This document shows, in pieces, positions 26,470 to 44,500 of a DNA stretch of 64,000 bases (its first letter is position 1; the number at the start of each line of letters is the position of its first letter). The DNA is from Candidatus Dependentiae bacterium (GTDB lineage Bacteria > Babelota > Babeliae > Babelales > RVW-14), in assembly GCA_018266175.1 (NCBI GenBank), contig JAFEAY010000003.1:356642-420641 (forward strand). Direction: 5' to 3'. The notes below the pieces were generated by a model. The model worked only from the letters and a program-made list of their open reading frames with translations. It was not told the origin of the DNA and did not search any database. A program made the translations under genes and the position numbers.

Positions 26470-26505
26470 CAACCAAAACAAGATGGGCACCGCGGGGTGC
26501 CCATC
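26470..26505 (-). terminator. Terminator of the large outer-membrane protein gene
   Basis: A perfect 10-base GC-rich stem (gatgggcacc / ggtgcccatc, 26482-26505) with a 4-base loop is followed on the minus strand by TTGTTTTGGTT. It lies 35 bases after the stop of the gene ending at 26540. Confidence 0.85.
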
Positions 26506-26539: not shown

Positions 26540-28933
26540 CTAGAATGTGTAACGAATACCTAGGTTAAGACCGTAAGCAATCTGTGTTCCTAAGCTTTCG
26601 TAAACAGCCTCACCTTCACGGCCTGGTGTTACATCAAGGCGGCGGGTGTTGCGGTTTGGTTGACCTTTAAGGTCTTTGTACAATTGGCCTGGCAAGAAGA
26701 TTGCATCAAGGGTGTAGAGGCGGAGGTTTTCAAGCACAAAATATTCGGCGATGAGGTTCAACTCGGTGCCCATGTAGCTGCTTGCACGGTGCGTTGTTTC
26801 CCAGCCTTTGAAGCCGAGTTTCGTGCGAATGCCTTCTATGCCTGCAGCAGGAACACCTGCAATAACTGCATTCTGCAATTTATCATTTACAGCATTCCCA
26901 GTATTGATGTTTGGTGCTGCATTAACATCCCACTTATTAACACGACCTGGTGTCCAGAAACCAAGAACGTTGGTATTGATGCTCATCTTGTCGCGCTTCT
27001 TGAGTGGGAACCAGTTTAAGCCACCACCGATATACGCCAAGTTACTCATATCTTGGAAGTGATTGTATGCGTACATTTTGTTGTACGAAATATTCATTGG
27101 TCGAGGACCGACACGAACAAACAATACTGCTAAGCTGCGTACTTCATGACCAATGTAGTTGTAGTCACGTTGTGTCATAAAGCCTTTGAATTTGCGTGAG
27201 CGCTGTTCGTTATAAGGATATGCATCACCGCTGATGTAGGTACCGGCAAGTGCAATTTTGAGTGGGCACTTTTCGAAGGTGTATGAAATGTCACCTAAGA
27301 ACATGAAGCCACTGTAATCAAGTTTGAATGGCTTACGGAAGCGTTCGTTGCCAACTAAGTTTGAATTCACAACGTTTTGATCAGCTGTAAGATCTGCAAA
27401 TTGTGCATTTGCAACACGGGCAGCAGCAGTAGCTGGAATAGTATTGATGAAACCAACACCAGCAGCATTTGCACCAGTCACACTAACTTCTTTATCACTT
27501 ACACGCAATGTTACCGGAGCACCAGCAGCATTTGCCGTTTGCAGTTGCACACCATTTTTATCAGCAGCGCGATTTATTGATAAATTTTCTACATTAAGAA
27601 GTTGGTGGTTAATCGGAGAAACTACAACAACGCCACCGGCCACTACCGCCGGTGTTTTTAGATTTGTCGTTGCTTTCACAGGAGCATTTTGGTTAGCCAA
27701 AACCGCAATAACATTGTTGTCTGTTGTAGCACCATCAAGAACACCAGCAGCAATTAGTGCTGGTATTCCAGCTGGAGAGTTAAGAGTCGCAGCATCCCCA
27801 TAAAAAATATGGCTGTTAACTTCCTGAACATTTCCGGTAACCTTGTCACGCTTGAGCTGCACAACATTGCGGTCAATACCAAACACATCTTGGTGACCAA
27901 ATTGTCCAGCCGCTTCAAGGTTCACATGAACACGCTTCCAGTTAAACTCAACCATAGCGCCGTATGTCCCAAGTTCTGAGCGCGCATCTGCTTTAACTTC
28001 AATGCTTTGCTCTGGAGCACGGGTGTACATGATGTACGGTTCAAGCAACAAATCCCAATTTTTTTCTTTGAGTTTGTAATCAAGCTTGAATGCCCATGTT
28101 TCTGTGTCTTTGCACGAACCACGTTCTGGACGAGGAGCTTCAAGACGTTGAATACGAGATGGGGCACGTGTGTCACCCAAAAACACGGTGACGCCTTGCC
28201 ATTTGGTGTAGTAAAATGTTGCAGTCAAATTTTTAATGATTTCACCACTCAACACAACACCAGCTGGGGATTGTTCAAGGTTTCGTGCATTACCATCAAG
28301 GTTCCAGCCCATGTGTGGCACGCCGCCATCAACATAGTAACCAAGCGCAACACCGCGACCTATCCAATAGGGAAAGTAACCAATTTGCAAATAGGTTGGG
28401 TGTTTGTGAAATGGACGCAAGAAAGCGTCAAAGTTGATTTTCAAATATGCATCTTCAGCAAACATTGTTGGAACCAATTGACGATGTGTGTGATCGCCAA
28501 TGTGTGCGCCATCAAGACTTTGAATTTGCAAGTCGGTCTCTTCAAGACCTGTGTAACGACCTTCGTTACGCCACATGCTGTAGTTGGTAATTTTCAAGAG
28601 TGCTTCGGTTGCTGGCTTGCCATGACGGCGTGCACCTTGACGCACACCAACCATTAAACTTGCTTTGTGTCTCCACGCATTGATAACGTCTGAAAAGTCA
28701 CTACGCAATGTTTGTGATCGTCCTGAATAAAAATATTCTTCACGAACGCGTCCACCAAGCAACATTTGCATGTCTTTGGTTGCGAAAAAAAGTGATGCGG
28801 GAACAATGTCATCTTTTGTTAGTTTCTTTTCAGACTCAACAAGCGATGAGTCCGCGATAACTATATTTTGCCATGCTGTGCTTGCCAACAGGCATGCAAG
28901 CAAAAGCTTGTGTATACGTAACTTCATGCTCAT
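26540..28933 (-). CDS. Large outer-membrane beta-barrel protein candidate
   Basis: This 797-residue protein has a signal peptide (cleavage near NIVIADS) and many alternating amphipathic strands with aromatic ends. The C-terminus LGIRYTF ends in Phe, as the outer-membrane insertion signal requires. N-terminal strands include LLGGRVREEYFYSG and KASLMVGVRQGARR. The middle (about residues 370-530) is a different, Ala/Val/Asn-rich block (for example AAGVLDGATTDNN and TIPATAAARVANAQF) that interrupts the strand pattern and may be a surface loop or inserted domain. The ATG at 28933 follows GGAGAAGG. I see some resemblance to alginate-export-type barrels in the first third but would not assign it. 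The gene stands alone, with a terminator after it. Confidence 0.78.
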   Translation of the reverse strand: MSMKLRIHKLLLACLLASTAWQNIVIADSSLVESEKKLTKDDIVPASLFFATKDMQMLLGGRVREEYFYSGRSQTLRSDFSDVINAWRHKASLMVGVRQGARRHGKPATEALLKITNYSMWRNEGRYTGLEETDLQIQSLDGAHIGDHTHRQLVPTMFAEDAYLKINFDAFLRPFHKHPTYLQIGYFPYWIGRGVALGYYVDGGVPHMGWNLDGNARNLEQSPAGVVLSGEIIKNLTATFYYTKWQGVTVFLGDTRAPSRIQRLEAPRPERGSCKDTETWAFKLDYKLKEKNWDLLLEPYIMYTRAPEQSIEVKADARSELGTYGAMVEFNWKRVHVNLEAAGQFGHQDVFGIDRNVVQLKRDKVTGNVQEVNSHIFYGDAATLNSPAGIPALIAAGVLDGATTDNNVIAVLANQNAPVKATTNLKTPAVVAGGVVVVSPINHQLLNVENLSINRAADKNGVQLQTANAAGAPVTLRVSDKEVSVTGANAAGVGFINTIPATAAARVANAQFADLTADQNVVNSNLVGNERFRKPFKLDYSGFMFLGDISYTFEKCPLKIALAGTYISGDAYPYNEQRSRKFKGFMTQRDYNYIGHEVRSLAVLFVRVGPRPMNISYNKMYAYNHFQDMSNLAYIGGGLNWFPLKKRDKMSINTNVLGFWTPGRVNKWDVNAAPNINTGNAVNDKLQNAVIAGVPAAGIEGIRTKLGFKGWETTHRASSYMGTELNLIAEYFVLENLRLYTLDAIFLPGQLYKDLKGQPNRNTRRLDVTPGREGEAVYESLGTQIAYGLNLGIRYTF

Positions 28934-29082: not shown

Positions 29083-30978
29083 CTATTTCACAGGTGCTGC
29101 TTGCGCAGGCTTTTCTGCCGGTGTTTGCACAGGCGTGGTTGCTGGTTGTTTAACTTGGGGTGTTACTGAAGCTTGCGCCGGCTGTACAGGCAGCACTGCT
29201 TGCTGAATTGTAGCAGGAGCTTGTGCTGGTGTTGCGGCAGGCGGTTGCACTGGTGTCGATACAACTGGTTGTGCAACCGATGTTGTTGCTGGCACTTGAG
29301 CTACAGCTGGCCTGTCCGTCGAAGCCTTGGCGGAGTCGGACGCAGGAGCAACCGACTTTTGTTCAACTTGAGGCTGTACTGTTGGCTTGCTTTCAGGAAC
29401 TTGAGCTGCTGGTACTTGCGTTGCAGGTTTTTGAGTAGCTTGAGACGGTGCTGCTTGTGTAGACGCTTGAGTTACAGCTGGCGCTGTAGGTTGTTGCGCT
29501 GGTGCAGGAACGGGAGGCTTTTGTGCAGCCTGCACAGGAGCAGCTACAGGCGTAGACACCGCCGGAGCTGCTTGAGCAGACGCTTGTGCAGCTGGCGCTC
29601 CAGGTTGTGCAGGAGTTTGCGGAGCTGCGGGGACCGCCGGCGCTGGTGCTGCCGCTACAGCTGTTTGTGGAGCTGTCGTTGGCGCAATCGAAGGAGCTGC
29701 AGGTGCAGGCGTATCGCGCCCAGAAGTTAAGAAATATGGTATTGTTTTATAGCCATCTTTTTTACGACGATCCTGATGAAACAACGTAATTCTCCACTGC
29801 TCAATTTGACCTGCAGCTTCGATGATAGCAAACGTGTCGTTATAAAATTTGAAGCCTCGTTCAACTGCAAGTGTTGGCGCTGAAAGCAAGGTCCATGTCG
29901 TTACGCCCATCTCGGGAGCAAGTATACGCAATCCTTCTGATGGCTGATACGTTTCGCGTTTTTTCTCAACACGTAAAATTGCTTTTACATTAATTTCTGG
30001 AGCACTTGCATCGGGTGTAGGTAACGCATTTCCTTGCCATGACAACACTGAAACAGGATCTTTTGAGGGCGTCATTAAAAATTTTGCAAAATGCTTATCG
30101 GGTAACTTGGCACGCGTAACGCGTGAAAAGCGAACAAATGCATTGTTGTCTGGTGCCGGCGCTGCAAGATAAATAATGTTTGGCAGTGAATCGAAAAATT
30201 TTGTCATTTCGGGCTCAAGCGGCGTTGCATCTTTGGTGAGGCCTGCAGCACGAATTTTGAGCTCTGTTTTGAGCGTATGCTCTTGCCAGTATCCGTCAGA
30301 TTCATGACTTCCTTTGGTGTACAACACACGGTCGGGGTTTTGTTGCATCAAACGTAACGTAAGTCCAATAATTTCCATACTAAATGGTGAACGGCTTGGA
30401 ACATTACCTAAAAATATAATGAAGCAATCTGGTGAAACAATTTTTAAATCATCACCTAAAATTCCCAACTCTTTGAGTTTTGCCACATTACGAACCAGCG
30501 AATGAAATGCCGCTTGCATATCACCAAAGACAATAAATTTTGATTGTGGCGTTGCTGTAACTCGAGCAATATTTTGATTTTTAAACCCTTTTTGATCGCG
30601 TGTTTTATTCACATCCTCAAGAACTGTTTTAAAAAAAGAAGCGGTAAATGCGGGAGGTTTTTTGAGACGAAGTTTTTCAAAAAGACCACCCAATTTGTCT
30701 TTGATGGTTCTCATAACTGATGGAGCAAAGCGCTTGTAGTAATTGGTGAAATCGGGCTTAACAGCATTTTCTGACTCAAGCGGAGTAAGTTCGTTGGTTG
30801 ATGCAGCATAGCGCTGCACATCGGCAAGCGTGATGAAACCTTGTGTATAAAATGGCTGAGGTGAAACAAACAAACCAATGATCAATAAAACAAGAAGAAC
30901 ACCCAAGGTGATACCGGAAATTTTTAAGATAGGAATAAGCAGGCTTGATGCACCTGACTGCTTCTTTGTACTCTTCAT
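29083..30978 (-). CDS. Membrane-anchored protein with degenerate PPP-type metallophosphatase domain
   Basis: This 631-residue protein has one N-terminal membrane anchor (about 14-38, SGITLGVLLVLLIIGLF). A domain follows whose layout matches the calcineurin-like PPP phosphatases, but with changed motifs. GDMQAAFHSL (152-161) stands for GDxHG, FLGNVPSRSPFSMEII (189 on) for GDxVDRG, and YTKGSHE (220-226) for RGNHE. Several expected metal ligands are replaced (H to Q, D to N, N to S), so catalysis is doubtful. From about residue 430 the protein is a Pro/Ala/Gln/Val tract. It starts 34 bases downstream of the channel gene and is probably co-transcribed. Inside its tract lies one copy of a palindromic element also found in the binding-protein gene. 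Confidence 0.75.
   Translation of the reverse strand: MKSTKKQSGASSLLIPILKISGITLGVLLVLLIIGLFVSPQPFYTQGFITLADVQRYAASTNELTPLESENAVKPDFTNYYKRFAPSVMRTIKDKLGGLFEKLRLKKPPAFTASFFKTVLEDVNKTRDQKGFKNQNIARVTATPQSKFIVFGDMQAAFHSLVRNVAKLKELGILGDDLKIVSPDCFIIFLGNVPSRSPFSMEIIGLTLRLMQQNPDRVLYTKGSHESDGYWQEHTLKTELKIRAAGLTKDATPLEPEMTKFFDSLPNIIYLAAPAPDNNAFVRFSRVTRAKLPDKHFAKFLMTPSKDPVSVLSWQGNALPTPDASAPEINVKAILRVEKKRETYQPSEGLRILAPEMGVTTWTLLSAPTLAVERGFKFYNDTFAIIEAAGQIEQWRITLFHQDRRKKDGYKTIPYFLTSGRDTPAPAAPSIAPTTAPQTAVAAAPAPAVPAAPQTPAQPGAPAAQASAQAAPAVSTPVAAPVQAAQKPPVPAPAQQPTAPAVTQASTQAAPSQATQKPATQVPAAQVPESKPTVQPQVEQKSVAPASDSAKASTDRPAVAQVPATTSVAQPVVSTPVQPPAATPAQAPATIQQAVLPVQPAQASVTPQVKQPATTPVQTPAEKPAQAAPVK
29315..29340. 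repeat. Palindromic 26-base element, copy A, inserted in frame
   Basis: The 26 bases match copy B at 33565-33590 at 20 of 26 positions and keep the same centre (gccttggc here, gcctcggc there). On the coding (minus) strand it reads SDSAKASTD, inside the Pro/Ala tract of the phosphatase-like protein. The sequence is more GC-rich than its surroundings. Confidence 0.65.
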
Positions 30979-31012: not shown

Positions 31013-32122
31013 TTACTTCAAAAGTATATAACTAACAGGTCCCAAAAGCAACGTGACCATGGTGACAAAAATTATGTTATTCAACACTTCAAGAAAGCTC
31101 TTAATCTGTTGCATATCTACTTTTTTATCAGCTCTACTTGCTTCATCCATTGAAGAATAATAACGAGTCATGAGCAATTGGCTCATGAAGCATAAAAATG
31201 CGATGATGAGGAGCACCAAGTAGACTTCATCGGTTGTGGTAAAATACCCAACTTTAGGCATCATCGACTCAATAACAAAGCGATATCCCAAGAGTGCGGT
31301 GACGCCTGCAATAGCCAAATTAAGTCTTCCAACCGTATTGGTAATTCCCATTAAAAATGAGCAGAGCGATAAAAACAGGGCTGCAAGAATTGGTAAGAAA
31401 ATAATGAGAATTTTTCTGAATCCTGCTTTTACAAAATTGATGATAAAAAGCGCTTTAGGCGCTGAGGTGACGGCACTTTTATCGGCCTGATCTATTACCA
31501 AATGCGAATATCCAAAATTTACATTGGTATCATAGATTTTCCAGTTTGATACAAAAAGATTCTTTGCAATGCCAAAAGAGGTTCGGTCAACCAAAAATGC
31601 CATTTCATCAGGGGTTACAAAGTCATTTGAAAGAATAATCGAAAGTCGATGATCATCAAACGGAAAACGATAGTGACGTAAATCGGTCCTGACTTCAAAC
31701 AAGACGTTGTATTTTGCAAAGAGCCGATTGTCTTTGACTTTGATATCAGGTTCTGATTTGTATAAAATTTTTCCGTTATCAATTGAAAATTGCTCGATGG
31801 TTTTGAGCATAAGCTCATCATGGTTAAAATCAAACCAAATAATCGAATCGATGATAAAACTATTTTTGATTTCATCAAAGAGTGGAATATTTTTGATAAA
31901 AAGCCCGGTCCGCACACGCACGGTCGAAAGGCGAGCTTCGCGAACCTTTTCCATTTTTACCCGCAAGTCTGGAATAGGGTCTGCTGTTCCAAAACGTGTT
32001 GCAACATACTGAATAAGAATGCAAAAATAGAGCATTAACATGCTGACCGCTACAACTTTTACACGAACATTGCTCATATCAAAAACTTTTTTAAGCATTG
32101 GGGTAATTGCCATATTATTCAT
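31013..32122 (-). CDS. Pentameric ligand-gated ion channel homologue (pro-loop receptor family)
   Basis: A 369-residue protein with the full layout of a bacterial Cys-loop-type channel. After an N-terminal membrane segment (20-41) comes a beta-rich extracellular domain (about 60-222) with RVRTGLFIKNIPLFDE and IIWFDFNHDE. The pro-loop RHYRFPFDDHRLSI (149-162) matches the FPFDxQ core without the eukaryotic cysteines. Four C-terminal helices follow: M1 (233-258), M2 (263-289, RLNLAIAGVTALLGYRFV), the M2-M3 link MMPKVGYFTTTDEV, M3 (298-318) and M4 (344-368). This resembles GLIC and ELIC. Ion choice cannot be read from M2, which lacks a clear selectivity Glu. The ATG at 32122 overlaps the binding-protein gene by 8 bases; an ATG at 32113 is also possible. 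Confidence 0.85.
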   Translation of the reverse strand: MNNMAITPMLKKVFDMSNVRVKVVAVSMLMLYFCILIQYVATRFGTADPIPDLRVKMEKVREARLSTVRVRTGLFIKNIPLFDEIKNSFIIDSIIWFDFNHDELMLKTIEQFSIDNGKILYKSEPDIKVKDNRLFAKYNVLFEVRTDLRHYRFPFDDHRLSIILSNDFVTPDEMAFLVDRTSFGIAKNLFVSNWKIYDTNVNFGYSHLVIDQADKSAVTSAPKALFIINFVKAGFRKILIIFLPILAALFLSLCSFLMGITNTVGRLNLAIAGVTALLGYRFVIESMMPKVGYFTTTDEVYLVLLIIAFLCFMSQLLMTRYYSSMDEASRADKKVDMQQIKSFLEVLNNIIFVTMVTLLLGPVSYILLK

Positions 32123-33653
32123 CCATCTTAATTTCACTGGCCTGGATAAAGTCTTTTTCTTCACCCTCATTAATCCATACCTGATCAGAAAGTGTTCTGG
32201 TTACTGCATTAAAGGACAATTTTAAACCATGGATATCAACTTCTTTAAACCCTTCGCATGCTGCAACAATTTTTTCTGTTGTTACAGGCGGTTGAATTGT
32301 ATTGAGTACTTTAAGAAAAATAAGAGCGTTAATGTATCCTTCAAAATAGAAGGGACCGACCGCTTGGTTGGGAAGATGCGTTTGCATGGCGGTACGAAAC
32401 TGTTGAGCAATTGGCAAACTGCTGCGCAACGGATCGGGAACAACTGATGAAGTAATCATGCTTGCACCACGAAGTTTGCTTAAAATTTTTTGAACTGCAA
32501 CCAATTCGGAAAACCCCAAAAAGACGGATTTATACAACCCCTTGTTAATTGCTAATCGAACAAAAGTTGATGCTGGACGAGAAGTTGCAATGCAAAAAAC
32601 AACATTCGGTGATTTTTTTGCAATGCGGTCAACAGCATCAGAAACGTTGACCGAACCGTCCGGATAAGCTGCCATTTCAACCGGCTTAAGATCAAAGCGC
32701 TTGAGCACTTCAACTACTTTTTTGCGGCACTCATTTCCCCAATCGCTTTCTTCATAAAAGATAGCAACTTTTTTACGGCGCAGGCGATAAACTGCGTAAG
32801 CGGTTAAAGCTTCAATCTCTTTTTCGTACGGCGGCCTAAAAAAAACAAGGTTGCGATAGCCGGCTTTTCGAAGAGTATCGACACCCGCTATCGGAAAAAG
32901 TCCAAGTAACTGATTACGTAATATTGATGGAAGCGCCGTAAATAAATTTTCATCCCCCAGCATGCTTAAAAATATTGGCGAGTTACTTTTGAGTTGATTG
33001 ATGTTCTCACGGGCACGCAGTATTTCAGATTTATCATCTCCTGAAAAAGTTTGAATGAAGTAATTGCTCGTTGGGTTATCGGTGTTGATGTGGTTAAAAA
33101 CCAGCAACATTCCTTCGTTGACGTGCGTTCCGATAATACCATTCTTTCCGCTTAAAGAGGCTGAAATACTCACGGATATTTCGGTTTTATTGCCAACTGA
33201 TTTTGAAGGAATAGGCAATGCTTGAAATTGTGGAAATGGATTTTTTGGTTCAAGCGTAAAAGATTTCACCAATTTTTTGGCAGTTTTTTTTACTTTCTTC
33301 AAAGCTTGCTGAGCCTTTCTCACATGCTCAGTAATTTTTGCTCCTGCCTTTTGAGAAACCCTTGCGGCGTCGTCATAGGAGTGCTGCGCTGCTGATGCAA
33401 CTTCCGATTGCTCAGGAGCAGATGCAGCTTGAATTGGGGGTGATACCGGAACTGATGCTGACGTTGCAGGTTGTTGTTGGAGCGTCGACTGTGCAGGAGT
33501 AGGTGACACTTGGGTTGGTACAGTTGCCACTTGGACTTGTGGAGCGGGATGAGGCTGTTGCCCGTCCGCCGTAGCCTCGGCAAAGGCGGATGCAATGCAA
33601 CCATTCAAGAAGCTTACAAAAATTATGAATAAAAATTGTGTAACCATAAGCAT
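32115..33653 (-). CDS. Periplasmic solute-binding protein (type I, LivJ/Peripla_BP_6-like), likely lipoprotein
   Basis: This 512-residue protein has a signal peptide ending in FLNGC, a plausible lipobox with C19. A Pro/Gln/Ala-rich linker (about 30-95) and a basic helix (KKVKKTAKKLVKS) lead to a two-lobe binding domain (about 165-505) of the branched-chain amino-acid receptor type. Its marks are SASLSGKNGIIGTHVNEG at the first lobe, KKVAIFYEESDWGN at the second and FYFEGYINALIFLKVL late in the fold. AAGGAT precedes the ATG at 33653. No ABC permease or ATPase is near; the gene instead overlaps the ion-channel gene. That suggests ligand sensing for the channel rather than import (inference). 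A palindromic element lies in frame just after the lipobox. Confidence 0.85.
   Translation of the reverse strand: MLMVTQFLFIIFVSFLNGCIASAFAEATADGQQPHPAPQVQVATVPTQVSPTPAQSTLQQQPATSASVPVSPPIQAASAPEQSEVASAAQHSYDDAARVSQKAGAKITEHVRKAQQALKKVKKTAKKLVKSFTLEPKNPFPQFQALPIPSKSVGNKTEISVSISASLSGKNGIIGTHVNEGMLLVFNHINTDNPTSNYFIQTFSGDDKSEILRARENINQLKSNSPIFLSMLGDENLFTALPSILRNQLLGLFPIAGVDTLRKAGYRNLVFFRPPYEKEIEALTAYAVYRLRRKKVAIFYEESDWGNECRKKVVEVLKRFDLKPVEMAAYPDGSVNVSDAVDRIAKKSPNVVFCIATSRPASTFVRLAINKGLYKSVFLGFSELVAVQKILSKLRGASMITSSVVPDPLRSSLPIAQQFRTAMQTHLPNQAVGPFYFEGYINALIFLKVLNTIQPPVTTEKIVAACEGFKEVDIHGLKLSFNAVTRTLSDQVWINEGEEKDFIQASEIKMDE
33565..33590. repeat. Palindromic 26-base element, copy B, inserted in frame
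   Basis: TCCGCC at the left end pairs with GGCGGA at the right, and GCC/GGC pairs inside, so it can form a hairpin. On the coding strand it reads SAFAEATAD and sits only a few residues after the lipobox cysteine. Copy A lies 4.2 kb away in another gene of the same operon. Confidence 0.65.
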
Positions 33654-33670
33654 TCTATAAATCCTTATAC

Positions 33671-33702
33671 AAAAATCGGGCAGAAGGTTCTGCCCGATTT
33701 TT
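33671..33702. terminator. Bidirectional-looking terminator after the 11-residue-repeat protein gene
   Basis: A perfect 14-base stem (aaaaatcgggcaga / tctgcccgattttt) with an AGGT loop has A/T tails on both sides. It lies between the stop of the repeat-protein gene (33727) and the start of the binding-protein gene (33653), and so separates the two transcripts. Confidence 0.88.
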
Positions 33703-33726
33703 GCCGTTATTTATTTCAATTCTGTT

Positions 33727-36700
33727 TTATGCATCAACGTTTGCATAATCCAAGAAGCCTGTAACTACTTCAAGTGATGCACCTGGCATAATTTGGAGAT
33801 TCAAGTCGTCATCTGAATTTCCATTACCAAACGCAAAGCCTTCAGAAGCTGAAACAGCACCGTTGTTATACAAGAAGTTATTGTGATCGATACACAATGT
33901 TCCACGTGTCAGTCTCATACCCGCTACTGATGAAACAACCGAGCAACCATCAAAGAAGAGTCTCGATGTAGCATTTTGCAATGCAATCAGATCTCTGTCT
34001 GCGCTTGCTGGTGCGTAGCTAAATGTTAAGCCCTTATCAAAGACTAAGGTCGCATTACCATTAACCATTGAGTAACCGGTTGAGGTGTACACAAAGGCAG
34101 AGGTACCTGTGATAATATTCTCTTCAATAAAGCGCATCGATCCAACTGAGAAGATATAATCACTGGATAGATGCAAGGTGCTACCTTTGAATATGAGATG
34201 AGCATTTGGACCAACGCAATCCAAGTTGCTACCACGAAGGTTTGTAAGCGCAAGATCCTGAATAGTGAGATGACCTGGTTGTAGCAGATGAATATTCTTG
34301 TTTGCAAAATTCAAGACGTTGCCATCACCATAAAGCAATGTTTCACCAACAAATGTCCAGGTCTTGGTCAAGTCTTGACACTCACTCAGTTCAACTTTGG
34401 TGCAATTACCAAAGATAATTTGAGCGGTACCAAGCATTGGATCCTGCATGAGGTTTATTGCTTCATCATCAAAGTCACGCAATACCACATTTTCAAGTGT
34501 AACGGTTACGCCTGGCTGAATTCTGAATTGGTTTGATTGTTTACGTGCAAACTTGATTGCATGTCCAGAACCATTGATAGTGGTATCAACCGTCACCAAT
34601 AAGGTATGTGATGATGACAAGAAGATATCAAAGCTTAAGGTGTATGTTGGAGCTGTATCGATTTGAACGCCCCATGGTCCATGGTCGATGGTATCAAGCT
34701 GTGCATCAAGCCACACAATTGCCATACTGTTGTTTTTGCAGCAGTACAATAACGTATTGCTATTGTTCTTGGTTAAGAATAATAATGCATTACTGTTGTT
34801 CTTATTCAAGTACAACAATGTATTACTGTTATTCTTGCAGCATGAGATTAACGCATTACTGTTATTTTTTGCCAAGAATAAGAGTGTGTTACTGTTGTTT
34901 TTACAACATGAAATCAGTGCATTGCTATTGTTCTTGGTCAAGTACAGAAGCGCGTTACTATTATTTGTTGTCAAGAAAAGCAGCGAGTTACTGTTATTCT
35001 TACAACAAGAGATTAATGCGTTACTATTGTTCTTGGTTAAGAATAGAAGCGCATTGCTGTTGTTCGTTATGCCAAACAGCGCAGCGTTACTGTTGTTCTT
35101 GCAGCAGGCAATTAATGCATTACTGTTGTTCTTGGTCAAGTACAATAACGTATTACTGTTGTTTTTATCGCCTGCAAGAATTGCGTTACTGCTATTTTTG
35201 CAACAGAACAAGAGCGCATTACTCAAGTTCTTGGTGAGATACAAGATTGTATTACTGTTGTTCTTATCCCCAGCAAGAATTGCATTGCTGTTGTTGGTTA
35301 TGCCAAACAATGCAGCGTTACTGTTGTTCTTGCAGCAGGCGATTAATGCATTGCTATTATTCTTGGTCAAGAACAAGAGCGCGTTGCTGTTGTTGGTTAT
35401 GCCAAACAGCGCCGCGTTGCTATTGTTTTTGCAGCAGGCGATTAATGCATTGCTGTTATTCTTGGTCAAGAACAAGAGCGCGTTGCTGTTGTTGGTTATG
35501 CCAAACAGCGCCGCGTTACTGTTGTTTTTGCAGCAGGCGATTAATGCATTGCTGTTATTCTTGGTCAAGAACAGAAGCGCGTTGCTGTTGTTTGTTATGC
35601 CAAACAGCGCTGCGTTACTGTTGTTTTTGCAGCAGGCGATGAGTGCATTGCTGTTATTCTTGGTCAAGAACAAGAGCGCGTTGCTGTTGTTGGTTATGCC
35701 AAACAGCGCTGCGTTACTGTTGTTCTTGCAGCAGGCAATGAGTGCGTTGCTGTTATTTTTGGTTAAGAACAGAAGCGCGTTGCTGTTGTTATTAATAGCC
35801 GTAAAAACAGGGCCATTTGTATTTGTTGTTAACCACAACAAAGCATTACTCAAGTTTTTGCAACAATACAATGATGCGTTACTGTTGTTCTTGTCACCGG
35901 CCAGAAGCGCGTTGCTATTATTCTTGGTCAAGTACAAGAGCGCATTGCTATTGTTGTTGCAGCACGATAACAATGCATTACTGTTGTTCTTGTTCAAGGT
36001 TAAGAGCGCATCGCTGTTATTTCTAATAGCTGTGAAAACAGGACCATTTGTGTTGGTCGTTAACCACAAAAGAGCATTACTTATGTTCTTACAACAGAAC
36101 AATGATGCATTACTGTTGTTCTTGTCGCCAGCAAGAATTGCGTTGCTGTTGTTCTTAGTTAAGTACAAGATTGTGTTGCTATTGTTCTTATCACCGGCAA
36201 GCAGTGCGTTACTGTTGTTTTTGCAACATGAAATGAGCGCATTGCTGTTGTTCTTGGTGAGGTACAACATTGCATTGCTATGCGTTGTAAGCACTCGTTC
36301 TGTAACCACTTTGCGAATAACACCATTGTTAACATAAGCAATAAACTTTTGATTTGGATCAGCAGTCTTAATTGGTTGAATGCTATTTTCGTTTCCAAAA
36401 TCAAGCGTATCATACTCAAGCGCAAGATTATCAACGGTCATTGATGCTAAATCTGAAAGAGTTAAGGTCTTGTTCTGAGTAACAATAGTTGTTGGACCTT
36501 CAACATAAACACCACCAGTTGTCCAGGTGATGTCGCCATCCATTTCAACTTCAACTTGAGACAGTCGAAGCTGAGCTGTATCGTCTTCAAAAACAATACG
36601 CCCACTACCAAGTCCCTTGAGTTTTGCATCAGCAAGCGAAAGCGTTGCGCCTGATTTGATCCAAATAGATCCACCATTAGTTAAATCTACAAGATTTCCG

Positions 36701-37383
36701 TTACCGGTAATGCGGGAAACACCTGCAAAATACCAAATTCCAGTTACCGTCATTTTGCTGTTAAGCGCTAAATCATTAGCACCATCCCACAAAATTGTAT
36801 CGGGCCATGAAAGTGGTGCACCACCAAATGTTGTACGATATCCATTAAAGCGTACAGAACCAGAACCGGTAAATTTTACATCATCAGCAAATCCCAGGTC
36901 ATTTTCTAGAATTGCGGTACCGTTTCTCAACTTGATATTTTGATTGAGAGTATTAACAAGTGCAATCGTTAATGTTGTATTAAGATCTTGCAAACAGACA
37001 GCACCATTTAAACGCATAAAGCCAGAAAGACGGTTGTTCTGGTTACTTGCAATAACTCCCGCGTTGACTTCACTTGGATCGCCAAAATATGAGTCATTAC
37101 CATTCAAGAAGATTGTTCCGCCTCCAGAGGTTGTTTCAGTCAAATCAGTACAGTTCGCGTTAACGAAAAGTAGGCTTCCTAAAACGCTTCCTCCGTTACA
37201 CTCAAATATCGAACCGTTGTCGATAACGAGTTGACTTGGAATAATCTTAATCTTGGATGATAAACCAACAACTTTTATTGAACTTGATTTATCACCAAAA
37301 TCTATGGATGTTGCTGCGTATGCAGCAAATCCTTGCAGTATGCATAAAATGAGCGCACCAGCAAATTTGATGCGTATGTTCAT
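33727..37383 (-). CDS. Secreted beta-helix protein with about 48 eleven-residue NNSNALL repeats
   Basis: 1218 residues with a signal peptide (cleavage near AAYAATS). Residues 24-360 form a predicted beta-helix paralogous to the next two large genes (shared blocks such as GNDSYF, FTGSGSV, GGAPLSWPDTILW, TTGGVYVEGPTT). Residues about 367-894 are 48 tandem units of NNSNALLxxxK, 15 of them ending in CCK or CCN. The rest (895-1218) is a second beta-helix-like domain with DFDDEAINL and FVGETLLYGDGNVL. There is no C-terminal barrel, so it is not a classical autotransporter. Regular Asn and Cys positions suggest a solenoid with Asn ladders and disulfides, probably on the surface (inference). AAGGAGATG precedes the ATG. 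Confidence 0.82.
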   Translation of the reverse strand: MNIRIKFAGALILCILQGFAAYAATSIDFGDKSSSIKVVGLSSKIKIIPSQLVIDNGSIFECNGGSVLGSLLFVNANCTDLTETTSGGGTIFLNGNDSYFGDPSEVNAGVIASNQNNRLSGFMRLNGAVCLQDLNTTLTIALVNTLNQNIKLRNGTAILENDLGFADDVKFTGSGSVRFNGYRTTFGGAPLSWPDTILWDGANDLALNSKMTVTGIWYFAGVSRITGNGNLVDLTNGGSIWIKSGATLSLADAKLKGLGSGRIVFEDDTAQLRLSQVEVEMDGDITWTTGGVYVEGPTTIVTQNKTLTLSDLASMTVDNLALEYDTLDFGNENSIQPIKTADPNQKFIAYVNNGVIRKVVTERVLTTHSNAMLYLTKNNSNALISCCKNNSNALLAGDKNNSNTILYLTKNNSNAILAGDKNNSNASLFCCKNISNALLWLTTNTNGPVFTAIRNNSDALLTLNKNNSNALLSCCNNNSNALLYLTKNNSNALLAGDKNNSNASLYCCKNLSNALLWLTTNTNGPVFTAINNNSNALLFLTKNNSNALIACCKNNSNAALFGITNNSNALLFLTKNNSNALIACCKNNSNAALFGITNNSNALLFLTKNNSNALIACCKNNSNAALFGITNNSNALLFLTKNNSNALIACCKNNSNAALFGITNNSNALLFLTKNNSNALIACCKNNSNAALFGITNNSNAILAGDKNNSNTILYLTKNLSNALLFCCKNSSNAILAGDKNNSNTLLYLTKNNSNALIACCKNNSNAALFGITNNSNALLFLTKNNSNALISCCKNNSNSLLFLTTNNSNALLYLTKNNSNALISCCKNNSNTLLFLAKNNSNALISCCKNNSNTLLYLNKNNSNALLFLTKNNSNTLLYCCKNNSMAIVWLDAQLDTIDHGPWGVQIDTAPTYTLSFDIFLSSSHTLLVTVDTTINGSGHAIKFARKQSNQFRIQPGVTVTLENVVLRDFDDEAINLMQDPMLGTAQIIFGNCTKVELSECQDLTKTWTFVGETLLYGDGNVLNFANKNIHLLQPGHLTIQDLALTNLRGSNLDCVGPNAHLIFKGSTLHLSSDYIFSVGSMRFIEENIITGTSAFVYTSTGYSMVNGNATLVFDKGLTFSYAPASADRDLIALQNATSRLFFDGCSVVSSVAGMRLTRGTLCIDHNNFLYNNGAVSASEGFAFGNGNSDDDLNLQIMPGASLEVVTGFLDYANVDA
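34705..36285. repeat. 33-base tandem repeat array with a five-copy 99-base higher-order block
   Basis: The array contains about 48 units of 33 bases, each encoding NNSNALLxxxK or a close variant. Between 35296 and 35790 five near-identical 99-base blocks encode the triad LFLTK/IACCK/FGIT, which points to recent unequal exchange or slippage. All units keep the reading frame. Most variation falls in the last four to five residues of each unit. Confidence 0.93.
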
Positions 37384-37446
37384 AACATCTCCTTCTTCGC
37401 TTCACGATACAATCGTGATTTCTTCACTACTTAACAACCCACCCCA

Positions 37447-39516
37447 TTAATTTACGTTATTGTAAACCAACTTTCCTGAAAGCAACTGTAAGCTTGCTGC
37501 TGGAACAATCTTAATTTGAAGATCGTTGATTGCTACTCCATCACCAAAAACTATTGCTTGCGAATCACTCACTCCACCTGGATTCTGCAAAAAGCTCTTA
37601 CGGTCAACGGTTAACGTTCCCTTACGCAAACGCATGCCAGTTGATGTTGTTGCAAGTGTTGCACCATTTAAAAAGAGCTCTGCTGATGGATCTTGCATAT
37701 CAAATAAGTCCTTACTTGCAATAGATGGTGCGTATCTAAATGTTGTTCCAGGGCGAAGTCTCATACTGCTTTTTCGTTTGAGATTACTTACTTGGCTTGA
37801 TGTGTAATGGAAAGTGAATGTTCCTGATAAGTCTAAGTCGCCATTAATATCAAAACTACCTGTACTAAACGTGAAATCATTATCAAGGAACAAGTTTACT
37901 CGTCCATCAAAAACGATTTTAGACGCATTGGTATCGCAACGAATTTTATTCGAAGCAAGGCCCTTAATGGTGATATCTCGAATGGTTAATTGAGCACCGT
38001 TGGTTACAAAAATTCGACCGTTGGGCCCAAGTGTCAAAGTACGACTAACACCATCAAGAATACTGTCGCCTTTAAACGTCCACGTATAGTTGAGATCGCT
38101 GGTGAAAATTTCCATGGTTACACGATCACCAAACAACATCTTGGAAGCTGAGTTACCAAAGCTTACGTCTGTTGAAGCAAGATCACGCAAGACAATATTT
38201 TTGAATTCCAAAATTTGGTTTGGATCAATAATAACAATCTCACCCTCAATTGCAGGATCAATACGTGTAAAGTAAGCGATATGAGTATTTCCATTCAGAC
38301 ACAAGCTTGAGTTTACGTTCAAGCGATTGTCTGGAGAAATCAGAAGATATCGAGCAAGTGTGAGTGTTACTGATGAATCGAAAGTAACAACACCAAGAAT
38401 ATCAACGCGAGGTCGAACAATCGTGCCGTTGTTTAAAAATTTAATATGAACATTATTCGGATCATCAATAGGTTTTGGTTGAATGTTTGCTTTATCAGCA
38501 AATTCAAGCGGCTCATATGAAAGAGGACAACCATCAACCGTTAGTGAAGCGGCACTATCAAATCTCAAAATCTTATCTTTTACAATAACACGAGATGCAC
38601 CACTCACATAAATGCCACCACGCGTCATGGTCACATCACGATCCATCTCTATTTCACAGGAAGACATGCGTAGCTGTGAGGTATTATTTTCAAAAACAAA
38701 GAACCCAGATCCAAAACCCTTAATCTTTAGACCATTAAGATCGAGTGTTGTATTTTTTCTAATCCAGATTGTTCCACCATGTGAGAAATCAAGCGTGTTA
38801 CCGTGTCCATTGAAGTTTGAGTTTCCTTGAAAAATCCACTGACCTTTAATGCGAATATCACTATTCAACATAATATCGCCTGCATCTTTCCAGAGCAGTG
38901 TATCGGTCCAGGTTAATGACTTTCCACCTAAGATCAGTTGGTTACCATTCAAAACAATGGTTCCGGAACCGGTAAAGGTAACGTCATCACCAAGCTTCAG
39001 CGTATTTGCAAGACCCAACGTTCCTCGATTCAAAATAACGTTTTGATTGAGAGAGCTTTGAATTGCAATTGAAAGTGTTGATGTTTGATCGTGCAAAATA
39101 ATTGCATTTGAACTTTGAAAGGTTGGCTGCCCTTCTAAACGATTGCGAGTACCGCGTACAACAATTCTTTGAGCAACTAAACCGGGCTCAGAACGAAAAA
39201 CGGCATCGTTACCGTTCATCGAAATTTCAGAAACAGCATCAAAGTCGCCATCGGCAGTCAAACCAATTTCAGCAACATCGTTAACGAAAACGCCATCACT
39301 AAAAACAAGTTTATTTCCTTTGATAACACTAACAGGTTCTTTTTTAACCGTTCCTTCTGAAATGCTCATGCTGGTGCCCAACACGTTGAGTGTTGCAGCA
39401 GTTCCAACAATTTCAATAGCAGAGTCTTTTGCACCAAAATTAACTGATGCCTGCGTCATTGGCATCACTAAACAGAAGATTAAAACATGGCTTAGCAGAG
39501 CCCTTCTTATTTTCAT
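37447..39516 (-). CDS. Secreted beta-helix protein, paralogue without repeats
   Basis: This 689-residue protein has a signal peptide (cleavage near TQASVNF) followed by strands predicted to stack as a right-handed beta-helix. The same block order occurs as in the two neighbouring paralogues: GNDAVF, NRLEGQPTF, DVTFTGSGTIVLNGN, GGKSLTWTDTLLW and MTRGGIYVSGASR. It lacks the 11-residue array, as if the repeat protein were this architecture with an insertion. The C-terminal part carries RGT/RKGTLTVDRKSFLQ, as in the repeat protein. AAGGAG is 5 bases before the ATG at 39516; a GTG at 39522 overlaps that site and is unlikely. The role is unknown, possibly surface adhesion or a coat. Confidence 0.8.
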   Translation of the reverse strand: MKIRRALLSHVLIFCLVMPMTQASVNFGAKDSAIEIVGTAATLNVLGTSMSISEGTVKKEPVSVIKGNKLVFSDGVFVNDVAEIGLTADGDFDAVSEISMNGNDAVFRSEPGLVAQRIVVRGTRNRLEGQPTFQSSNAIILHDQTSTLSIAIQSSLNQNVILNRGTLGLANTLKLGDDVTFTGSGTIVLNGNQLILGGKSLTWTDTLLWKDAGDIMLNSDIRIKGQWIFQGNSNFNGHGNTLDFSHGGTIWIRKNTTLDLNGLKIKGFGSGFFVFENNTSQLRMSSCEIEMDRDVTMTRGGIYVSGASRVIVKDKILRFDSAASLTVDGCPLSYEPLEFADKANIQPKPIDDPNNVHIKFLNNGTIVRPRVDILGVVTFDSSVTLTLARYLLISPDNRLNVNSSLCLNGNTHIAYFTRIDPAIEGEIVIIDPNQILEFKNIVLRDLASTDVSFGNSASKMLFGDRVTMEIFTSDLNYTWTFKGDSILDGVSRTLTLGPNGRIFVTNGAQLTIRDITIKGLASNKIRCDTNASKIVFDGRVNLFLDNDFTFSTGSFDINGDLDLSGTFTFHYTSSQVSNLKRKSSMRLRPGTTFRYAPSIASKDLFDMQDPSAELFLNGATLATTSTGMRLRKGTLTVDRKSFLQNPGGVSDSQAIVFGDGVAINDLQIKIVPAASLQLLSGKLVYNNVN

Positions 39517-39622
39517 TCCCACTCCTTTAACAGGTCTTGCTCATTCAAAGCACTTTGTGTACATCAAATTTCCCTTTTTGTGACTCCCTTGCCTTTACCA
39601 AGACCCCCTTCAATAAATGGTT

Positions 39623-41548
39623 CTACTTAAAGGTAAAGCCAAAAGTAACATGCGCGTTAAATGTTTTTGGCACGTTCATGCCAGCAAAGGTGTACAGTAA
39701 TCCTGCAACCAAGCGCGTGTTGCGATCGTATTGATAGCTGTAGTCAAGTCCGGCGGTGTGTTCTATTTGTTGAGTATTTTCAGTAAAGACTAATGGATTC
39801 CATTCTTCTGTGTTGATACCATGAACACTGTCGGAGGATTTAAAGCGGAAGTAGTAGTAAGCGTCTAAGAAGCCGCGCTGAGACAAAAAGCGTTCGATGA
39901 TATTACCGATGCGCATTTGCATTTCAAAACCGGTTGTCAGTTTGAGCGTGGTGACGTTGTCACCGAAGTTTTTGAGCGTGGTATCGAAAGTATTAAAAAC
40001 TTCTCCCTTAGCAGAATTCGCTGCAATTAGAACACGATCATCAAATGCAAAAAGCCCTTTTTCTACATCCGATACTTTTTTATCTCCGCCTGTAATTTCT
40101 GCTGGATTTACTATTCTCTTTGGTACTCGTTTTTCAACATGTGCAGGTGCACCAAAAAGAGCTTGTAAGAAAAGATGTGGATTCAAGAATTGACGATATG
40201 AAAAAAGAACTGAGCTGAAAAATGCAAATTCGGTATGCCCATCGTTGCCCAGTGCAGGGCTCCACAACTTACGCGTTGTACTTTCTTTTGCAAAAGGAAT
40301 TTGAACCTTGGCACCAACCACCATTTTATCAAAATATGATGAGTTGATTTTTGCATGCATGAATAAAGTCACATCTCCAAGACCCATCGCGCTGCCACCA
40401 AGTTCTTCAATGCCCTTGGCTTTAAAAAGATCTTTTATGAAAAGATCGGTATCTTGACCGTAGCGGCGCATGAAAGCGTTGGGGGAAATATCACCAGCAC
40501 CAGCACCAGCATCAACAAGACCCTGTATCAAAAATGGATTAGCATTATCTTTAAATGCTTTCTCAGATAAATCAATATGAGCTCGTAAGCGATTTTTGCG
40601 GTAGACCAAAGGAAGCTGAACGCCAATAGCAAGATCGTTTCTAAACGCATAGCGTGCAAGATCAAAACGCACTGAGTACTCTTCTGCTTTACCCAAAAAT
40701 TGAATTTGTTCATCAGCAAGATATTTCAAATACTGGCTTGGAGCTTGATTTGCTGCATCAGCAAATTCTTTGTGAGTTAATGAACCCTCGCTCACCAACT
40801 TACTTGCAAGCAAGACATCTTTAACTCGAATTGGTTGTTCACCAAATTCAAGAATAGTCAGATCACGATTAACACCTGATGAATCGTAAGCGTCGGTTGC
40901 ATAGTTATAACTGACCGTGGTATTGAAAATGCCGCGGTTTTCAAAAAACGCTGCTGCCACTGGCCAAGCAGGAATTTTGTATAAATCGGCATATTTTCCT
41001 GCAGCGCGGTCATGACCACGTTTTTCAGCTTGCAGATGTTCCCATTGTCCCAAAAGCAGGCGGCGATTGCTGCGCTGCTCTTTTACATTGATCAAATGAT
41101 CTTTGTGTCGTTTTTCTATGGTGTGCTTAATCTTTGCAGTGCGTTCTTGTCGACGCGCACGGCGTGCCTTGCGCTCTTCTTCTTTACGCATACGGCGATC
41201 TTCATGAGCCCATGCGTTGTGCTCTTTTTCTTCAGCTTTCTTAAGCGCTTTTTCTTGACGTGCACGCTCACGATCGCTTCCAAAAGAGTCAACTCCTCGT
41301 CGAGACTTTTGAAAAGCCTCAACATCTTGTTCTATTGCTTTACTCTTTTTTTTCTGAACAGAAGGTCTTGACTCCTGTTGTTGTAAATCACTTACATATT
41401 CCTGCTCTGCTTGCGCAACCAGGGTTATTTCTTCATCAGAGAGCTCTTGCTCAAATGATCCCAATGGCTCGTCATATTCATGGCCGGCAACCAATGTTCC
41501 GCTTATAAGCAGAGCAGCCACGCTGACTTTCAACACGATTCTTTTCAT
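39623..41548 (-). CDS. Outer-membrane beta-barrel candidate with coiled-coil N-terminus
   Basis: This 641-residue protein has a signal peptide (cleavage near TLVAGHE). A highly charged helical region (about 40-165, Lys/Arg/Glu-rich, coiled-coil-like) precedes a C-terminal two thirds of alternating amphipathic strands (for example EFAFFSSVLFSYRQFLNPHL, DAYYYFRFKSSD, TRLVAGLLYTFAGMN). It ends with HVTFGFTFK, close to an outer-membrane insertion signal but with a final Lys. It starts 14 bases after the 1317-residue beta-helix gene and lies between paralogues of that family. A role in anchoring or exporting them is possible but unproven. Confidence 0.75.
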   Translation of the reverse strand: MKRIVLKVSVAALLISGTLVAGHEYDEPLGSFEQELSDEEITLVAQAEQEYVSDLQQQESRPSVQKKKSKAIEQDVEAFQKSRRGVDSFGSDRERARQEKALKKAEEKEHNAWAHEDRRMRKEEERKARRARRQERTAKIKHTIEKRHKDHLINVKEQRSNRRLLLGQWEHLQAEKRGHDRAAGKYADLYKIPAWPVAAAFFENRGIFNTTVSYNYATDAYDSSGVNRDLTILEFGEQPIRVKDVLLASKLVSEGSLTHKEFADAANQAPSQYLKYLADEQIQFLGKAEEYSVRFDLARYAFRNDLAIGVQLPLVYRKNRLRAHIDLSEKAFKDNANPFLIQGLVDAGAGAGDISPNAFMRRYGQDTDLFIKDLFKAKGIEELGGSAMGLGDVTLFMHAKINSSYFDKMVVGAKVQIPFAKESTTRKLWSPALGNDGHTEFAFFSSVLFSYRQFLNPHLFLQALFGAPAHVEKRVPKRIVNPAEITGGDKKVSDVEKGLFAFDDRVLIAANSAKGEVFNTFDTTLKNFGDNVTTLKLTTGFEMQMRIGNIIERFLSQRGFLDAYYYFRFKSSDSVHGINTEEWNPLVFTENTQQIEHTAGLDYSYQYDRNTRLVAGLLYTFAGMNVPKTFNAHVTFGFTFK

Positions 41549-41562
41549 AACATCATCCTCTT

Positions 41563-44500
41563 TTAGCTACGTGTACCATCTGGCTTAATGACAAAACTCT
41601 TGCCGCTAGCATCGCGCCCGCTAACGATAACAGAAGGCACTTGACCAGATTCTCCAAGAATGACATCTCCATCTTTCAGCGGCACACTGATACCAAGAAC
41701 AGTTCTCAATATTTTTGTTGTTCCTGATGCATTAAGAAAGAGTGTACTGTCTTTTAGAGTTGGAGATTGTTGAACAAACAACTCACACAACTCTTCACTG
41801 GTAAGTTGTTTATCATAAGAAAAAACATCTTCAACCGTACGAATATTGAAGCGACCGGTAAAGCCTCTGTAGGTACCACCAGTTTGTGATGCTGGACGTC
41901 CAACAAATTCAACTAAGCCTGATCCTGCAATTTGACCATTAACCGCACGCCATGTAAAAGTATGGCCTGTTCCAACTATAGAAGTTGTAGGGTTTAATAA
42001 ATCAGGGTCAACTGCGTTGAGTCCGAGACGGAACATTCCATCATTAAAGAAGGAACCACCGTTACCAAAACTCAAGATTTGCAAGTTACCACGTTTGAGT
42101 GTCGATTGAGGATTTGGTCCAAGAACAGCAGGGCCTTGAGCATTAATTTCAAGAACACCTTTTCTGCCAATGAATAAGCGACCACAATCTTCAAAGACAA
42201 GTGCTTCGGTTCCACCATGGAAACCAAGTCGTGCGGGACCGCCACCAATCACACCGCTTTCATCATCAATTCGTACTTCGCTGCAACCATTAACACAGAA
42301 CTTGATGTCATCTTGTTTGACATCGTTTCCAATGGCAAGAAGTGATGGCTTATTAAGCACAAGCTTTGATGCATTAAAGAATCCAATAAAGCCAATTCCG
42401 CCTATTTGTGCGGTAGCACCATGTTCAAGTGTTAAAAGAGCGCCATTATCAAAGATGAGCCGTGGTCGCTGAAGAATTGTTTGATCTTGGAATACCCTTG
42501 TAGGAATTACTCCATCATCACCTTTAAGAATTGAGCAGTCTGGTTTTCCGACAGGAATAATCTCTGCTTGCACCGTTCCACCAAAAGTGAAGCCCGCACC
42601 ATCAGCAAAAATTACCTCCCCGGCACCTTCAAAACGCAATTCACATCCCTCAGGCAATCCCAAACTCGCATCTTTAGGAAGATGAATGGTAGGTATTATT
42701 GCTTGGTCACCACTGTTTTCAAACTCAATAGTAAGTTCACTGTTCTTTTCAAAACAGAAGCCCTCACTCAAAACCATGTTATGCGTTACCTTAAGCCTGT
42801 TGTCTTTACCTCGAATATTCATAAAGTGGCTTGGGCCAAACGTAACATTTTGCGTCCCTTGATTAACAAAAGAGTTTCCTTCAAGCGTAATATTTGTAGG
42901 AGCTGTACCAAGGGTAAAGTTAGTTATGCCACCATTGCGAAGGCGCACATTACCAACAACACTCGATGAGGCATCAAATGTTGCATTTTCATACGTTTGA
43001 TCAAAACTTGCTGGAATATTTGGGCAAGCAACAACTGTATTGCGTGGAGTTTGTTTTTGTTGTTTTCCTGCAGGCTTACGAATATCAACATGATCTGCTG
43101 TTTCATGATCATCTGGGAGCTTAAGCGCTTGGTCATCTACATTTGATGCTTCGCTCTTAAGGGTCTGTTCAAGCAACTCATCAAGTTCACGTTTTTTTCG
43201 ACGACCATTTTGTTTCTTTTTACCAAGAGGTCGAAGATTTTCAGCGGTTAACTGATCGAGTATCGCTTGTTCATTTTCCTGGAACATCTCTCGTTCACGT
43301 TCGCGAGCAAGATGAAGAGCTGTTACCGGAACTTTACCATAAAATGCTCTGTTCAGCGGCGAACGAATGAAGCTTGGGTCAATCTTCTGACCAAATAACT
43401 CAATTGCTTCAAGCCTAAATTCGGTCGAAGACTGCTTAATTGGGTTATCCAAAATTTCAAGTCGTTTACAATTGATCAGCGATTGATCATCTACAATAAA
43501 GGCATTTCCATGTATGTTACGCACCGAGATTGATAGATCATCAAAGAAGACGCCTGCAACTCCCAATTCAGAAGTAACAAACAAACCTGGATTTCCAGAT
43601 AAGACCACTAATGGGTTGCCCGAGGTAACACCAGGTCTTTCAACAACTGGATCAGTGAATGCACTCTTAATATGTAACGCATTGCATGGGCAATCGCCAA
43701 AGAGTATTGATCCTGAAATTCTCAAACTATCTTTGAGAAGAACCATGTCGTTATCGACTGTTTCTACAACAAAGTTCATGTCGGTATCAACATCAATATC
43801 AACAGCCGCTTCACCACTTAAAGCTATTGCTCCTGCAATTTCTGAATCAAGATGAGTGATTGCACCAAGACCATTAAGCTCCACTGATTGAAGAAGCAAG
43901 GTATTATCTTGCAAATCAAGCAATGTTGCTAATGCTGGATTAATCGATCTGAAGGAAATTTTCTTACGTCCTGAGAGGCCTCGTAAGGTGAAAATGTTAA
44001 ATCCTGTCTCATCAACTAATTTAATAAAGTTTGTTGAGAAGGTAACGTTTTCACTAAATTCCCAGGCAACAGAGTGTTCAATGTTAACACGAGCACCTGT
44101 TCTGAAATCGAAAGTTGTATCGTTAATGCGAGAGAAATTAATATTTCTCAGACAGAGCGTTACATTTTCTGAAATAATAAATTGTGGTTTCTTGGTATTT
44201 GCAAAGTAAATGGTTTGACCACATCCATCAAGGCAGATGTTTGCATCAATTCTAATAACCTGATTACATGCAACAAATATGCTATTATTTAATGTCACTG
44301 TTGTGGTAATTGGACCAGAGAAAAGACAGCTATCACTACCAAGGACTGCAACTAATGATTTATCTGCGATTTCTTTAATAGTTCCTGTTCCAAGCAACTC
44401 CAATGTTCCACCGGAAATATTGGCAAGAACGTTTGAGTTATTCCAAATATGGCTAATAAATACTGGTAACGGCGGACGTAAAGCACCCAAAGCACCGCAA

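Follow-up and report, generated by a model that had tools for sequence, protein, structure and literature searches.

Does a solute-binding protein (SBP) whose gene overlaps that of a pentameric ligand-gated ion channel (pLGIC) serve the channel as a separate ligand-binding subunit? The question was raised by a locus in a window of 64,000 nucleotides, the whole stretch of DNA that was analysed, from a Candidatus Dependentiae genome of 1.83 Mb in 30 contigs, whose relatives form one order with many small genomes of about 0.5 to 2.4 Mb. To our knowledge, no activator has been identified for most prokaryotic pLGICs, and what these channels do for the cell is a long-standing question. The initial annotation of the window proposed a two-part split receptor in which a lipoprotein-like SBP presents a small molecule, perhaps a host amino acid, to the channel, and it noted that some prokaryotic channels carry extra periplasmic ligand domains. 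The latter point has already been published: Tasneem et al. (PMC549065) described type I periplasmic binding proteins (PBP-I) fused N-terminally to prokaryotic pLGICs in alphaproteobacteria, found PBP-II or Cache as separate genes within the operons of channels, and suggested a function in chemoreception.

Both genes were present on the minus strand (Table 1), and their overlap was found as annotated. The SBP stop codon TAA lies at 32117-32115 within ATGAATAATATGG, a channel start at ATG 32122 overlaps the SBP stop by 8 bases (ATGAATAA), and an alternative ATG at 32113 lies one base past TAA. The channel reading frame given earlier (32170-31013) started too early; judging from the sequence, the true start is likely ATG 32122 or ATG 32113, and the translation of the SBP and the channel is likely to be coupled. 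The channel gene is followed after 34 bases by the phosphatase-like gene, which is followed after 149 bases by the gene of the outer-membrane protein. Because hairpins lie on both sides of this set, the four genes look like one operon, and by the overlap and the bracketing hairpins the SBP gene is a stand-alone periplasmic sensor gene within the operon of the channel. Elsewhere in the window, positions 33727-45516 encode several large exported proteins in a row, one of which weakly matches a beta-helix. A 1218-aa exported protein (33727-37383) contains a 33/99-bp repeat array encoding NNSNALL variants, with long open frames on the opposite strand too.

Table 1. Features of the SBP-channel locus (positions in the window).
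Feature	Position	Strand	Length	Parts and properties
SBP gene	33653-32115	-	512 aa	signal/hydrophobic N-terminus; linker rich in Pro/Ala (residues 30-155, approximately); type I solute-binding domain (159-494)
pLGIC gene	31013-32122	-	369 aa (ATG 32122) or 366 aa (ATG 32113)	one membrane helix at the N-terminus, then a beta-sandwich ligand-binding domain (pro-loop FPFDDH) and four helices at the C-terminus
PPP-like phosphoesterase gene	29083-30978	-	631 aa	N-terminal membrane anchor; degenerate metal site; long Pro/Ala-rich tail
Outer-membrane beta-barrel-like protein gene	26540-28933	-	797 aa	
Terminator-like hairpin	33670-33703	.		15-bp palindrome just upstream of the SBP gene; -26.2 kcal/mol, z -7.9
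Terminator-like hairpin	26482-26505	-		10-bp core stem then TTGTTTT, just downstream of the outer-membrane protein gene; -24.5 kcal/mol, z -5.1

Profile searches and fold both show the window channel to be a true homologue of pLGICs. It matched GLIC at E=8.9e-7 in a single-sequence phmmer search and at 2e-16 in a PDB profile search with the family profile of 82 relatives. The AlphaFold2 monomer model had a mean pLDDT of 94.5, and Foldseek matched it to GLIC (2.3e-17, probability 1.00) and to GABA-A, glycine and GluCl receptors (about 1e-17 to 1e-16); the model has the fold of the superfamily, a beta-sandwich ligand-binding domain with four C-terminal helices. The Pfam profiles that the initial annotation had suggested for its identification (Neur_chan_LBD and Neur_chan_memb) gave no match for the window channel, and just 3-4 of the 82 relatives match them, weakly (0.005). 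NCBIfam LGIC_1 was matched at E=1.6e-16, yet with 60.6 bits against a cut-off of 500 bits; such missed cut-offs of curated profiles are a database threshold and not a biological criterion. A scan of genome contigs with the single channel protein found one relative, at the same locus as G006, and a search of plasmids with the channel gave no match.

The annotated pro-loop FPFDDH and the GLIC-like M2-M3 pattern were present in the channel, and in 87 channel sequences the prolines of the pro-loop (P154) and the M2-M3 loop (P289) are invariant (87/87 each), while the M1 proline P244 is found in 85/87. The four terminal helices described earlier were also found, but the membrane helices number five in total, one of which precedes the ligand-binding domain. 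In family f17 further hydrophobic segments stand before this N-terminal helix, which makes a cleaved signal peptide improbable. GLIC, the proton-gated channel of Gloeobacter, is the closest solved relative by sequence and fold and has the pro-loop, the M1 proline and the M2-M3 proline in common with the window channel, which differs in its extra N-terminal helix, its SBP partner and its M2. Here the acidic ring at -2' (glutamate in GLIC) is absent, T/S stands at 9', R is found at 15' in 70/87 sequences, and E at 19' in 60/87. Because the GLIC ring at -2' is missing and T/S replaces a hydrophobic gate at 9', ion conduction by the channel is putative. Within the ligand-binding domain, the aromatics F97, F112 and W194 are strongly conserved.

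The overlapping gene encodes, by its sequence, a type I SBP. The Pfam match that had been expected was obtained, with Peripla_BP_6 at E=2.7e-26 over residues 159-494 (93.5 bits; cut-off 31.7), and the nearest solved chains were 3lop (phmmer 6.4e-22), 4kv7 (phmmer 3e-18) and 4n0q. At the positions of the LivJ sequence that we take to be its amino-acid contacts (S79, T102, Y202 and E226), the window SBP has D, G, T and S, respectively. Because these contacts are lost, an amino-acid ligand is unsupported, and we rejected it for the window SBP on these residues. Most members of the SBP family retain G-(T/S) in the S79 region and an aromatic at Y150. Only 2 of the 39 free SBPs of the family have a lipobox-like motif, so that FLNGC in the window SBP points only weakly to a lipoprotein. 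A GC-rich segment of the SBP, SAFAEATADG, was considered as a repeat element dispersed among genes and rejected, as the genome has a single copy when up to 3 mismatches are allowed.

The SBPs of LIV importers, such as LivJ and LivK, have the same fold and belong to the same Pfam family, but the window SBP differs from them in having neither a LivHMGF partner nor the LivJ ligand contacts. The initial annotation was right that no ABC permease lies near the locus, and no LivH/LivM-type permease partner was found in either the operon or the genome assembly. Both Peripla_BP_6 proteins of the window genome adjoin a channel (C3:302983 with channel C3:304141, and the window pair). The sole BPD_transp_2 permease of this genome adjoins an ATPase on a different contig, and the one TrpX-type SBP of the genome (PF04392) is a likelier partner for it than the channel-linked SBPs. 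No ABC transporter pairing with the window SBP was found elsewhere in the assembly. In the relatives G001 and G017, paired LIV-type permeases each have a strong Peripla_BP_6 gene alongside. The sequence upstream of the G000 permease is partly masked.

Among the 101 phylum genomes, 65 encode the channel, often with two to four copies each. Among 90 channel genes in the fetched loci, 70 have an SBP gene on the same strand within 1.2 kb, with a gap mostly <40 bp, and 65 have a phosphatase-like gene nearby; the pair is therefore conserved as neighbours across the phylum, as the initial annotation had proposed to check, and the pairing is far beyond chance. A strong Peripla_BP_6 protein is encoded by 56 of the 65 channel-bearing genomes vs 3 of the 36 channel-less genomes. 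The channel tree has three clades. Clade A, which includes the window, has the order SBP-channel-phosphatase-like; clade B has SBP-channel, often at a conserved site near RodA-like and WaaA-like genes (names from sequence reading); in clade C the channel is followed by a fused phosphatase-like-SBP protein. Clade-B pairs have no pseudophosphatase, so this protein is not essential in all systems. Channels without a nearby SBP comprise all of family f19 and some of f3, f6, f14 and f17.

We also considered that the neighbourhood might be due to chance or history, with the SBP serving an ABC importer elsewhere and being unrelated to the channel. The housekeeping neighbourhood of clade B is conserved, and synteny alone could hold genes together there, but the linkage survives rearrangement and fusion: when clade-C loci of different genera were compared pairwise, only 9% of the pairs had any flanking gene in common within 5 kb, and because these flanks differ while the linkage stays, the association is not just frozen synteny. 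In addition, the only BPD_transp_2 permease of the genome has a TrpX-type SBP available, and the two relatives with paired LIV-type permeases have a separate SBP beside the permease. We consider this explanation extremely improbable. Channel and SBP distances correlate with r=0.70, and when SBPs were swapped among paralogues within genomes the mean was 0.38, with 0/2000 swaps reaching 0.70. Paralogous channel-SBP pairs do not swap partners, although this fidelity is dominated by the three-clade split and can follow from tight linkage alone.

The phosphatase-like protein, which the initial annotation had missed, is a third conserved member of the system, and in one clade it is fused to the SBP; the unit therefore has more than the two parts first proposed. 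Its homologues match Metallophos (L001, 5.3e-9; L047, 2.6e-8), and phmmer related the phosphatase-like domain to BSU1 (3.2e-7) and PP5 (2.9e-6). The GDxxG / GDxxxR / GxHE-like motif frame is that of the PPP Ser/Thr phosphatases, the motifs of the window copy being DMQA / GNVPSR / GSHE. In contrast to these phosphatases, the proteins described here are periplasmic and SBP-fused, and their metal site has decayed. The five metal ligands (DxH, GD, GNH) are not kept in the window copy (DMQ / GN / GSH); among 74 phosphatase-like domains all five were found in 3 (L049 and L047:10971-12851 being members of this kind) and decay in 71, and at most one is left in 24 of 45 fused domains. We infer that the protein is a periplasmic pseudophosphatase adaptor.

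In clade C, a single polypeptide beside the channel joins a phosphatase-like domain to between one and five SBP domains. The AlphaFold2 model of one such fused protein (L047) had a pLDDT of 89, and Foldseek confirmed its SBP fold (1.8e-22). The G098 array consists of a channel and four fused proteins with seven SBP domains in all. In the G099 array, the channel is followed by a free phosphatase-like gene, by giant periplasmic proteins of 2381 and 2317 aa (L111:3521-17725), each made of a phosphatase-like domain and five SBP domains, and by one more fused protein.

These arrays bear on how the SBP could act. It might concentrate a small molecule near the membrane and release it to the channel's own orthosteric site, without gating by the SBP itself, as Tasneem et al. 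proposed for PBP/Cache partners of other prokaryotic pLGICs (PMC549065). The conserved F97, F112 and W194 leave room for such a site in the channel. However, up to five tandem SBPs per polypeptide by one channel would be odd if they fed one site, and the fusion of SBPs to a membrane-tethered pseudophosphatase points to a fixed complex, so we regard this hand-off as unlikely. A further possibility is that the domains of the SBP and of the phosphatase-like protein have degenerated into scaffold or adhesion structures that bind no small molecule and modulate the channel, or just the envelope, by structural means. The decayed metal site, the loss of LivJ-type contacts in the window SBP (S79, T102 and E226 replaced by D, G and S) and the likeness of the repeat arrays to structural repeats would fit this. 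Yet many Peripla_BP_6 proteins bind ligands other than amino acids through other residues, the fold is intact and most members keep the residues in the S79 region and at Y150; we hold this explanation to be quite improbable.

Conserved downstream in operons of this kind within one genome family, the outer-membrane protein has 9 homologues, all in family-f1 clade-A operons, and the one in L001 is weakly like Alginate_exp, below the cut-off (1.1e-4). With this protein, the four genes between the two hairpins of the window operon cover the outer membrane, the periplasm (phosphatase-like protein and SBP) and the inner membrane (channel), and their products could be a route of passive or gated import of a host solute, with the pLGIC as the inner-membrane pore. 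Chromulinavorax, a possibly related isolate, reportedly cannot make most of its amino acids and nucleotides and relies on import (PMC6561590). We give this explanation little credence, since the outer-membrane gene is confined to the operons of one family and nearly all members have lost the phosphoesterase metal ligands (all five in 3/74). Moreover, the pores of pLGICs are known as ion pores.

In our opinion, the best reading of the locus, which we hold with slightly more confidence than doubt, is a split receptor channel gated by the SBP, which is tethered by the pseudophosphatase. From the initial annotation, this reading retains the channel homology, the SBP without a LIV-type partner and the conserved neighbourhood, and gives up the two-part make-up, the lipoprotein and the amino acids. 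By homology, five pLGIC subunits would assemble into an inner-membrane homopentamer whose ligand-binding domains face the periplasm. The type I SBP would be secreted to the periplasm and bind a small molecule there, and the anchored PPP-like pseudophosphatase, covalently joined to it in related systems, would hold it near the membrane. The SBP may then dock on the extracellular ring of the channel and change its gating, with a putative ion flux and a presumed physiological role in sensing. Recognition would thus rest mainly with the SBP in place of the orthosteric site, and which signals a channel reads would depend on how many SBP modules it has and of what kind.

A separate ligand-binding subunit is the best reading because a true pLGIC homologue stands beside an SBP without a LIV-type partner, and the pair is conserved phylum-wide. 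The split receptor is supported by the Rosetta-stone fusion of the pseudophosphatase with 1-5 SBP domains beside the channel, by the linkage kept amid changing flanks, the distance correlation and the co-occurrence across genomes, by the position of both Peripla_BP_6 genes of the window genome next to channels, and by distant channels that carry or adjoin Cache domains, as expected for exchangeable sensor modules. It is weakened by the channels without a nearby SBP, by clade B without a pseudophosphatase and by an M2 without the acidic ring and the hydrophobic 9' gate. These results suggest that recognition of the chemical signal lies with the sensor and not with the channel. More tentatively, and with rather more doubt than confidence, we speculate that a class of multi-component receptor channels exists throughout the phylum. 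Each would combine a single pLGIC with exchangeable SBP arrays (one to about ten modules), which sit on pseudophosphatase adaptors and read it out as a chemical antenna. If true, this would be a family of ligand-gated channels that delegates recognition to dedicated separate SBP subunits.

Each channel is assigned a dedicated binding protein by its genome context, so that its ligand can be sought with a routine SBP screen and then a gating test. This is of fairly high interest, for it makes the discovery of pLGIC ligands in prokaryotes directly testable, and it may reveal how small-genome bacteria that are thought to live inside protists sense their surroundings. If the split receptor is true, the neurotransmitter-receptor fold and the SBP fold, which is also that of the N-terminal domain of glutamate receptors, work as separate, recombinable parts, and this bears on the origin of fused neuronal receptors.

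Studies have described related arrangements. The ART-LGICs of Tasneem et al. (PMC549065) likewise tie a periplasmic binding domain to a pLGIC or place a stand-alone binding-protein gene in a predicted channel operon. In contrast, the PBP-I here is a separate gene that overlaps the channel gene instead of being fused to the channel polypeptide, a PPP-like pseudophosphatase is added and fused to PBP-I in one clade, and PBP-I is repeated up to five times, with several paralogues through most of a phylum. Given this precedent, the Dependentiae system is a new, elaborate variant of a known theme. According to PMC12664993, no pLGIC other than DeCLIC has an N-terminal domain that is partly characterised. 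In DeCLIC, too, a periplasmic accessory domain modulates a prokaryotic pLGIC, but this large domain is covalent and has no SBP fold, whereas the sensor here is a separate protein. The type I binding-protein fold is a receptor module in ionotropic and metabotropic glutamate receptors, which differ in belonging to another channel superfamily or to the GPCRs and in having fused domains. This use of the fold is also noted in PMC549065. A search of the openly accessible literature found no report of a three-part SBP-channel-pseudophosphatase system, and the term 'ion channel' is absent from the Babela and Chromulinavorax genome papers.

Other sensors were found with more distant channels of the phylum. 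A second pLGIC group (L119 in G020; L120 and L121 in G099 and G098) has a dCache sensor, fused or in an adjacent upstream gene. For example, a protein of 704 aa at L119:4971-7085 has a dCache domain (3.5e-13) fused in front of a distant channel homologue, and in L121 a dCache-like gene (8.9e-7, below cut-off) lies directly upstream of another. That the sensor type changes while the channel core stays supports the coupling of sensor and channel. In G011 (L123:3959-8332), a membrane-anchored urea-type SBP (Peripla_BP_5, 3e-117) lies 9 bases upstream of a 1029-aa dCache protein. The C-terminus of the latter reads weakly like a pLGIC by sequence: it was found at 8.8e-6 in the whole-genome search, with a marginal re-score and no match to a solved structure.

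Some channels have long hydrophobic N-terminal extensions of about 200 to 1180 aa (L094:7118-11671, L090, L032 and L034), and those scanned had no Pfam match. An output domain in the extensions of f17 and f5 was considered but found no support, since they are N-terminal and hydrophobic, with no Pfam match in the two scanned. Several pLGIC genes have neither an SBP nor a phosphatase-like neighbour (L063:803-3975 in G041; L046, L061, L099 and L103 of family f19), three in tandem among them. In G026, a divergent channel (L101:7434-9745) lies between two genes that read as peroxiredoxin-like.
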